Shown in pieces: positions 10,806-27,013 of a DNA stretch of 38,811 nucleotides (positions are counted from its first letter, which is position 1; each line of letters starts with the position of its first letter). Origin of the DNA: Hyphomicrobiales bacterium (lineage in GTDB: Bacteria; Pseudomonadota; Alphaproteobacteria; Rhizobiales; Methyloligellaceae); assembly GCA_021775575.1 (NCBI GenBank), contig JAJFHO010000020.1, positions 1 to 38,811 of the forward strand, in the 5' to 3' direction. A program made the position numbers and the translations under genes. The notes beneath the pieces are model-generated. The model saw nothing but the letters and a program-made list of their open reading frames with translations, was not told where the DNA came from and did no database searches.

Positions 10806-10912
10806 CTAGAGCGCTTTCAGGAAAAGTGTGGGCGGTTTTCCACCCGGAAAGCGCGTTAAAATAAATAGATAGAGCATGATCGGCGATTCAGAAATCGTCG
10901 AACCTGCTCTAG
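10806..10912 (-). repeat. 107-bp double-hairpin intergenic repeat, copy A
   Basis: Bounded by CTAG at both ends. It is 103/107 identical to the reverse complement of 26907-27013. Read on the minus strand it begins with the stop codon of the DUF6898-type gene, forms a hairpin (arms 10903-10910 and 10871-10878, with one mismatch), continues through an AT-rich linker and forms a second hairpin around GGGCGG-TTTT-CCACCC inside the outer arms GCGCTTTC/GAAAGCGC. It resembles the small palindromic intergenic elements (RIME-like) of rhizobia. It lies between the hemA transcript and glyA. Confidence 0.88.
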
Positions 10913-26160: not shown

Positions 26161-26910
26161 GTGACCGAGCACAAGACAGACTTTCCGCAATTCTATATCA
26201 CGGCGCCCCAGCCCTGCCCTTACCTGCCCGGCAGGCTGGAACGCAAACTGTTCACGCATCTTACGCGCAGCCGCTCGGGATCACTCATCGACAACCTGCT
26301 GAAAGGCGGCTTCCGCCGCAGCCAGAACATCGCCTATATGCCCTATTGCGAAACCTGTTCCGCATGCGTGCCGGTGCGCATACTTGTCGACGAGTTCGAA
26401 CCCAAACGCACGCTGAAGAAAATATGGCGGACAAATCTGGATATCCTGCGCCAACGGACCGGATCGGTTCCCACATCGGAACAATATTCGGTGTTCAGGG
26501 CCTATCTCGATGACCGTCACCGCGACGGCGGCATGGCCGATATGTCGGTTCTCGACTATGCGATGATGGTTGAGGACTCGGTCGTCAACACGCAACTGAC
26601 CGAATACCGCCTCCGGGGCGATTGCGAGGACGCGGGCGACGCCGGAGCGCAAAGAGAACCGCTTGTGGGCGTGGCGTTGTCAGACCGGCTCAGCGACGGG
26701 ATTTCGATGGTCTACAGCTTCTTCGATCCGGAGATGAAGGAGCGGAGCCTGGGCAGCTACATGATTATCGAGCATGTCGAATATGCCCGCTCGCTAGGCC
26801 TTCCATACGTCTATCTCGGTTACTGGATCGATGGCGCGCGCAAGATGGAATACAAGACCCGCTTCAGGCCGCAGGAGCAACTCACGCCGGAAGGATGGAT
26901 CAGGGCCTAG
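26161..26910 (+). CDS. bpt: Aspartate/glutamate leucyltransferase (bacterial N-end rule)
   Basis: Transfers leucine from Leu-tRNA to proteins with N-terminal Asp or Glu and so marks them for ClpAP degradation. It has 249 residues, normal for Bpt. Visible: PQFYITAPQPCPYLPGRLERK near the N-terminus, YMPYCETCSACVPVRI (Cys 63, 66, 69), SYMIIEHVEYARSLGLPYVYLGYW and the closing KMEYKTRFRPQEQL. The start is GTG at 26161 with GGGACG upstream, 11 bases after the SLC13-type gene. The TAG stop codon is formed by the first bases of the double-hairpin repeat, so the element sits directly against the coding end. Confidence 0.95.
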   Translation: MTEHKTDFPQFYITAPQPCPYLPGRLERKLFTHLTRSRSGSLIDNLLKGGFRRSQNIAYMPYCETCSACVPVRILVDEFEPKRTLKKIWRTNLDILRQRTGSVPTSEQYSVFRAYLDDRHRDGGMADMSVLDYAMMVEDSVVNTQLTEYRLRGDCEDAGDAGAQREPLVGVALSDRLSDGISMVYSFFDPEMKERSLGSYMIIEHVEYARSLGLPYVYLGYWIDGARKMEYKTRFRPQEQLTPEGWIRA

Positions 26911-27013
26911 AGCATGTTCGACGATTTCTGAATCGCCGATCATGCTCTATCTATTTGTTTTAACGCGCTTTCCGGGCGGAAAACCGCCCGCACTTTTCCT
27001 GAAAGCGCTCTAG
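26907..27013 (+). repeat. 107-bp double-hairpin intergenic repeat, copy B
   Basis: The reverse complement of copy A (10806-10912) with four differences. It starts with CTAG, which contains the bpt stop codon. The first hairpin has perfect arms AGAGCATG (26909-26916) and CATGCTCT (26941-26948) and further inner pairing, and is followed by ATCTATTTGTTTT, so it looks like an intrinsic terminator for bpt. The second hairpin contains GGGCGG-AAAA-CCGCCC within GCGCTTTC/GAAAGCGC arms. The parC gene ends 30 bases further on. Confidence 0.88.

Follow-up and report, generated by a model that had tools for sequence, protein, structure and literature searches.

A dispersed 107-nt double-hairpin repeat of a Hyphomicrobiales genome: TA target duplication in relatives, position on stop codons and a probable link to IS630-type elements

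CcrM-associated intergenic repeats (CIR) were reportedly introduced by Chen and Shapiro in 2003, and Rhizobium-specific intergenic mosaic elements (RIME), attributed to Osteras in 1995, are said to be 108 bp long and to contain two palindromes. According to the accessible part of a 2008 review (PMC2229807), the CIR of Caulobacter and Brucella are about 110 bp long and are composed of two arms and a linker with a GANTC site at the terminal loop of one arm; the same part marks their terminal inverted repeats with '-' and their target duplication with '?', calls for more information on mobility and leaves the role of the conserved GANTC undetermined. Within the portions of the sources available, RIME is named as an annotated repeat of Sinorhizobium (PMC2573895), lengths of 103 and 106 bp are given for Bru-RS1 and Bru-RS2 at one locus of Brucella (PMC10800456), RUP of the pneumococcus is listed as a 107-bp miniature inverted-repeat transposable element (MITE) attributed to IS630-Spn1 (PMC2229807), and preferential insertion of Shigella IS630 at TA in CTAG is stated in a title cited in PMC2170065.

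The 107-nt unit analysed here occurs twice in the window, i.e. the whole analysed stretch of 38,811 nucleotides of a Hyphomicrobiales bacterium. The criteria of CIR, namely about 110 bp with two stem-loops and a linker, a conserved loop GANTC, TA termini with many copies outside gene interiors and an alphaproteobacterial host, were all found in the unit when compared by description, whereas TA duplication at empty sites of relatives and GAGC ends common to IS630-type elements set it apart from CIR as listed in the review. It resembles RIME in its size and its two palindromes, and homologous repeats are present on Rhizobium and Sinorhizobium plasmids. By description, it is also like Bru-RS in size and palindromic structure (accessible parts of PMC10800456 and PMC2266754), but Bru-RS differ in that IS711 is described as inserting into them (PMC2266754). 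As far as the review's listing goes, RUP is likewise a 107-bp MITE with a TA target, its IS630 partner being known and that of the unit being proposed here; RUP differs by terminal repeats that are highly shared with IS630-Spn1 and by having no GANTC motif listed. Shigella IS630, judged from the cited title, targets the TA in CTAG like the unit but is an autonomous insertion sequence. Thus, the kind of element is already described, and the TA duplication, the landing on stop codons and the shared position of GANTC are added here. Stop-codon landing, an IS630 link and target duplication were not named in the literature searched, which comprised titles, beginnings of abstracts and few subscription papers.

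The inverted pair and the dispersed family

The two window copies form an inverted pair of 107 nt with 96% identity and a spacing of 15,994 nt (Table 1), and the search of the window detected just one further inverted pair, of 33 nt and 73% identity. The original prediction of a near-identical inverted pair with four differences, bounded by CTAG and with two separate hairpins in each copy, was confirmed by the alignment, the ends and the folds of both copies. Both start with CTAGAGC and finish with GCTCTAG, and the terminal CTAG of each carries the stop codon of an adjoining gene; the DUF6898 gene at copy A was overlooked by the codon-usage gene caller and is supported by Pfam. The TA boundary of copy A was carried over from the empty sites of relatives described below. 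Promoter-like sites were found at neither copy, no Rfam family was detected anywhere in the window at the gathering threshold, and no phage sequence matched the unit.

Table 1. Positions of the features in the window, of the empty sites in Rhizobium plasmids and of copies of the second small repeat
Feature	Position or record	Strand	Remarks
Copy A, 107-nt unit	10806..10912	+	101-nt element 10809-10909 between TA 10807-10808 and TA 10910-10911, CTAG context
Copy B, inverted	26907..27013	-	103/107 identical to copy A
Left hairpin, copy A	10811..10854	+	Counterpart in copy B 26965-27008; outer stem covaries across the family
Right hairpin, copy A	10870..10911	+	Counterpart in copy B 26908-26949; read, by GANTC position, as counterpart of the transposase-upstream end of IS630
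GATTC (GANTC, CcrM-type site), copy A	10885..10889	+	Right loop; bp 21-25 inward from right end
GANTC site, copy B	26930..26934	-	Same place as in copy A
DUF6898 gene, 76 aa	10909..11139	-	TAG stop 10909-10911 within right end of copy A; Pfam match
Arginyl-tRNA-protein transferase gene (ATE_N, ATE_C)	26161..26910	+	TAG stop 26908-26910 within right end of copy B
Empty site 1	L175 vs L177/L178		Target TTAA
Empty site 2	L169 vs L179/L180		Target CTAG
Empty site 3	L176 vs L185		Target CTAA
Second repeat copies	L002 1605-1876; L021 1341-1505; L013 142-308		Seven more on other contigs

A BLAST search of the own genome (4.06 Mb in 281 contigs) revealed 28 matches, 25 of them full or near-full, with 93-100% identity to copy A, so that a chance resemblance of the two window copies is excluded. 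The 25 aligned copies share the ends CTAGAGC...GCTCTAG, point mutations aside. A model built from the own copies had matches in 11 of the 30 genomes of the bacterial family, the own one included (53 in G002 and 18 in G023), and BLAST found relatives on 29 plasmid records from Rhizobium (24), Sinorhizobium (3), Mesorhizobium (1) and Acuticoccus (1); the gene tables of the Rhizobium and Sinorhizobium plasmids list no repeats. With a second model, derived from 31 diverse copies, matches were obtained in 150 of 249 sampled genomes and in 74 of 112 genera of the order; scoring was limited to 15 candidates per genome, and the copy numbers are consequently lower bounds. The 107-nt unit represents a dispersed family rather than a single duplication event. 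The search of the genome and its relatives thus did not end with two copies only and none elsewhere, and the RIME-like dispersed family that had been proposed is supported by the 28 own matches, the covarying stems, the plasmid relatives and the order-wide matches.

In two own copies (L018 and L024) the right-end TA is mutated, and in L018 an adjoining allophanate-hydrolase-like ORF, whose stop was lost by mutation, appears to run into the element. The own genome also contains a second small repeat with inverted ends GGTTGAGRAC..., which spans 157-182 or 265-267 bp between TAs; most of the ten copies read have a CTAG context. In three instances it adjoins the CTAG end of a 107-nt unit, which may be compared with Bru-RS, reported in the accessible part of PMC2266754 as a preferred target of a YTAR-using insertion sequence.

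Target duplication and position on stop codons

For the analysis of natural empty sites, four annotated-region matches were picked because their coverage suggested a missing element, and a site was regarded as clean when both 20-nt flanks were at least 17/20 identical. Three clean sites were obtained, all in plasmids of Rhizobium relatives and thus not for the window copies themselves (Table 1). Each has one TA when empty and two TAs when filled, with a 100-nt element GAGC...GCTC between the duplicated TAs; a fourth site (L170, H9) is clean on the left side alone. At site 3 the left border of the filled locus is CTAG, its right border is CTAA and the empty state reads CTAA; therefore the duplicated unit is TA and not the 4-bp CTAG. 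The same left/right asymmetry was seen in L107 and L108 of G023. At site 1 the base after TA is A in the empty and G in the filled state, and the right flank of another filled copy at this site (L186) is shortened by a small deletion. Here the target coincides with the stop (TAA) of an annotated gene of 201 bp, and the coordinates of this gene are identical in an empty and a filled strain: TAA is changed to TAG because the element's own G comes after the TA, and an insertion that supplies TA and this G therefore spares the reading frame. Relatives were thus seen to differ from the empty sites by a duplicated TA within YTAR, the sites alone being compatible with either state as the older one. 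Empty sites were not found within the own genus, where the comparison covered the own genome alone. For the flanks of one copy, the corresponding sites in the genus of G009 were too diverged for reading a duplication, and a gene end near the stops of the relatives was recognized there by eye. In L176, on a Rhizobium anhuiense plasmid (~2101), the copy is inserted at the TA end of an apparent different family member; elements of the family may nest at each other's ends.

REP/RAYT elements, which are palindromic, dispersed and mostly intergenic like the unit and are moved by a Y1 (REP-associated) transposase, are not known to leave a target duplication. The unit has TA duplications and GAGC at both ends, and with about 105 nt and two arms it also departs from REP palindromes, described in the accessible part of PMC3733652 as short, 20-40 bp. 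Neither a short palindrome nor a missing target duplication was found, a REP/RAYT origin is extremely improbable, and the original label 'REP-like', taken as a way of moving, is not supported in view of the duplicated TA at the empty sites.

The position relative to genes was determined with a simple and crude gene caller of the codon-usage type trained on the own genome; the partial copies L026 and L028 were left out, and 41 of 103 copies from ten other genomes of the bacterial family were taken in. For the 67 copies evaluated, 70 distances from an element end to the closest gene stop reading inward were obtained; 46 of them place the stop exactly at the end TA, and no other stop-to-end distance was seen more than twice. 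A stop at an element end was present in 20 of 26 copies of the own genome (at both ends in five), in 10/21 copies of G002, 8/15 of G023 and 2/5 of G009. Thirty-five ORFs extend to an end of the element in frame with TAG, and 24 of the 30 that were given to Pfam match a family, the one at L018 with its lost stop being among them; the remaining five were left out (three in the second repeat, L023 right and L027 right). According to the deposited plasmid annotation, a stop lies at the end in three of six regions (H9, H24 and H27; not H5, H19 and H28), with H2 and H21 carrying no annotation at the element. In the order-wide sample with one copy per genome, a stop at an element end was recorded for 13 of 37 copies, and 14 of 37 distances equal zero; the 24 of 37 copies without a called stop at either end count against the preferred reading.

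The tetranucleotide CTAG is itself about ten-fold depleted, as 146 sites were counted versus 1,473 expected from base composition in a 420-kb sample consisting of the window and 20 own-genome stretches (L067-L086). Of the 114 CTAG sites that this sample has outside elements, 40 coincide with called stops, 28 fall inside genes and 46 are located elsewhere. The share of own copies at stops (20/26) was compared with all of these sites (40/114, P 0.00014) and with those outside gene interiors (40/86, P 0.007), and both comparisons favour a position of the element on stops beyond the frequency of stop-borne CTAG. The TA together with the first base of the element (G, sometimes A) gives TAG or TAA in both directions; a stop survives an insertion because this combination spells a stop codon, and since it is rebuilt in both directions, two convergent genes can share one element with both stops kept.

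Hairpins, GANTC position and the proposed IS630 link

Both window copies fold into two separate hairpins and a linker, with z values of -5.2 to -8.5 for the four folds against dinucleotide shuffles and none of 200 shuffles as stable in each case. The copies differ at unit positions 24, 37, 57 and 99; position 57 falls in the linker, and the one at position 99 makes the right hairpin of copy A less stable. It had been proposed that two of the differences are located in the stem of the second hairpin and keep it paired. Positions 24 and 37 indeed share one stem, which on the copy A strand is that of the first hairpin, and pairing is retained for one position per strand and lost for the other: in terms of the consensus pairs on the copy A strand, the change at position 24 stays paired (U-G versus C-G) and the change at position 37 results in a C/A mismatch, the roles of the two positions being reversed on the other strand.

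Among the 31 diverse copies, which have 12 different left arms, left pairing amounts to 7.81 of 8 on average versus 5.75 when arms are set against those of unlike copies, and the corresponding values for the right arm are 7.45 of 9 and 6.35. The stems of the element are thus shown to be preserved while their sequence changes (covariation). A column-wise consensus fold recovered just 13 pairs from these copies, as the position of the arms varies from subfamily to subfamily; the arms were therefore paired within each sequence. Covarying stems and strong hairpins on both strands would also be expected of a regulatory or 3'-end RNA element (bidirectional terminator or mRNA stabiliser) that is kept by the host, selected between genes and mobile only in the past, and a place directly at stops, sometimes of two convergent genes, is in line with such an element. 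Presence and absence with TA duplication between related Rhizobium strains and the 93-100% identity of the own copies to copy A argue in the opposite direction, as does the terminator scan, which was negative for copy A and yielded a single terminator-like site for copy B. As the sole explanation a host-kept RNA element is quite improbable; an RNA role and the MITE reading are not exclusive.

The GANTC site was found at the same place in 25/26 own copies, 16/21 copies of G002, 9/15 of G023 and 4/5 of G009, and in the order-wide sample in 22/37, being missing from the expected place in the other 15/37; since models R1 and R2 were built mostly from GANTC-bearing copies, its rate among the matches is biased upwards. 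A mixed set of small elements was restricted to the 63 of 68 copies that have both terminal TAs; counted inward from the right end, GANTC occupies bp 21-25 in 43/63 of them, and counted from the left end in 0/63. This geometry was compared with IS630-type elements (DDE_3 transposase), chosen regardless of GANTC: 106 loci were inspected, and ends were recognized at 54 of them and not at the other 52. Elements of the same order and class are 1,041-1,087 bp long and have GAGC or close variants as ends beside TA. Nineteen GAGC-type elements from 17 genomes (L265 and L334 being one kind from one genome) were evaluated; CTAG is present on both sides in 9/19, and most others have CTAG, TTAG or CTAA. 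GANTC occupies bp 21-25 of the transposase-upstream end in 16/19 and of the downstream end in 0/19, with an expectation by chance of 1 in 256 per end, and 0/24 IS630-type elements from other classes of the phylum have it there at either end. Among the ends of the GAGC-type elements, bp 5-20 are 35% alike on average and bp 21-25 are 90% alike. As a side observation, of 11 further IS630-type elements of the class that lack GAGC ends, seven have GANTC at bp 19-25 of one end (L274, L283, L344, L213, L219, L270 and L267), in two of them at the downstream end.

Over the first 11 bp, 32 of 126 small-element ends match an insertion sequence end at 10 or more positions, compared with 5.9 ends on average and 31 at most in 300 shuffled sets; this test is affected by the non-independence of related copies. 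The right end of copy B agrees with an IS630 end at 11/16 positions (22 of 1,000 shuffles as good) and that of copy A at 10/16 (100 of 1,000), and the left end of copy A is no better than chance. Beyond GAGC and GANTC, the window ends thus resemble an IS630 end modestly or not at all.

IS5-type elements of the IS427 group, such as Brucella IS711, also use YTAR targets with TA duplication and could have given rise to the unit as their MITE. IS711 duplicates the TA of YTAR and has a reported preference for Bru-RS repeats (accessible part of PMC2266754), the IS5-type elements L193, L196 and L191 are located at YTAR, L193 and L196 start with GAG, and GANTC occurs in both ends of L191, at bp 23 and bp 22, respectively. 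These ends weigh against the IS630 reading, and an IS5-type partner remains a rival. GANTC at exactly bp 21, however, was present in the 16/19 GAGC-type IS630 elements versus 0/8 ends of four IS5-type elements (DUF4096), a small sample from 20 loci in genomes of the bacterial family with ends found at four, L208 among them being doubtful; an IS5/IS427 origin is accordingly considered unlikely.

In the 281-contig assembly of the own genome, which can lose repeats, there were no matches to the DDE_3 (IS630) transposase and none to DUF4096 (IS5). No element ends were found for the single DDE_Tnp_1 match, nor did this genome yield an element in which the unit's ends enclose a transposase. Since a MITE can persist after the loss of its partner transposase, the missing resident DDE_3 lowers only the claim of a current partner. 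The IS630 partner may be extinct in the own genome, unassembled or present in other strains.

Proposed origin and meaning for the repeat family

Judged from the sequence comparisons, the unit is probably a MITE of IS630-type elements, of the CIR/RIME/Bru-RS type and moved in trans. It would descend from IS630-type (Tc1/mariner) elements with GAGC at both ends, the right hairpin representing the transposase-side end of the ancestor including GANTC at bp 21-25 and the left hairpin the other end. An IS630-type transposase would move it in trans, and the window copies would have been inserted in the same way as those of the Rhizobium relatives. Methylation of GANTC by CcrM may tune the use of the transposase-side end, which makes this site a candidate for CcrM control; Dam methylation tunes IS10 in this manner. 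A wider proposal has to be worded more tentatively: it is possible, albeit somewhat short of probable, that the whole CIR/RIME/Bru-RS superfamily consists of IS630-derived MITEs in which GANTC is a preserved methylation switch rather than a host cell-cycle landmark, CcrM would time transposition to the cell cycle as in the Dam/IS10 case, and the ends would rebuild stops both ways.

The TA duplication, the stop-sparing landing and the GANTC position of IS630 would together answer how these repeats move. Some annotated gene ends in these genomes are thereby located within element DNA. Moreover, the role of GANTC would become directly testable, as the question whether CcrM methylation controls IS630-type transposition in alphaproteobacteria.
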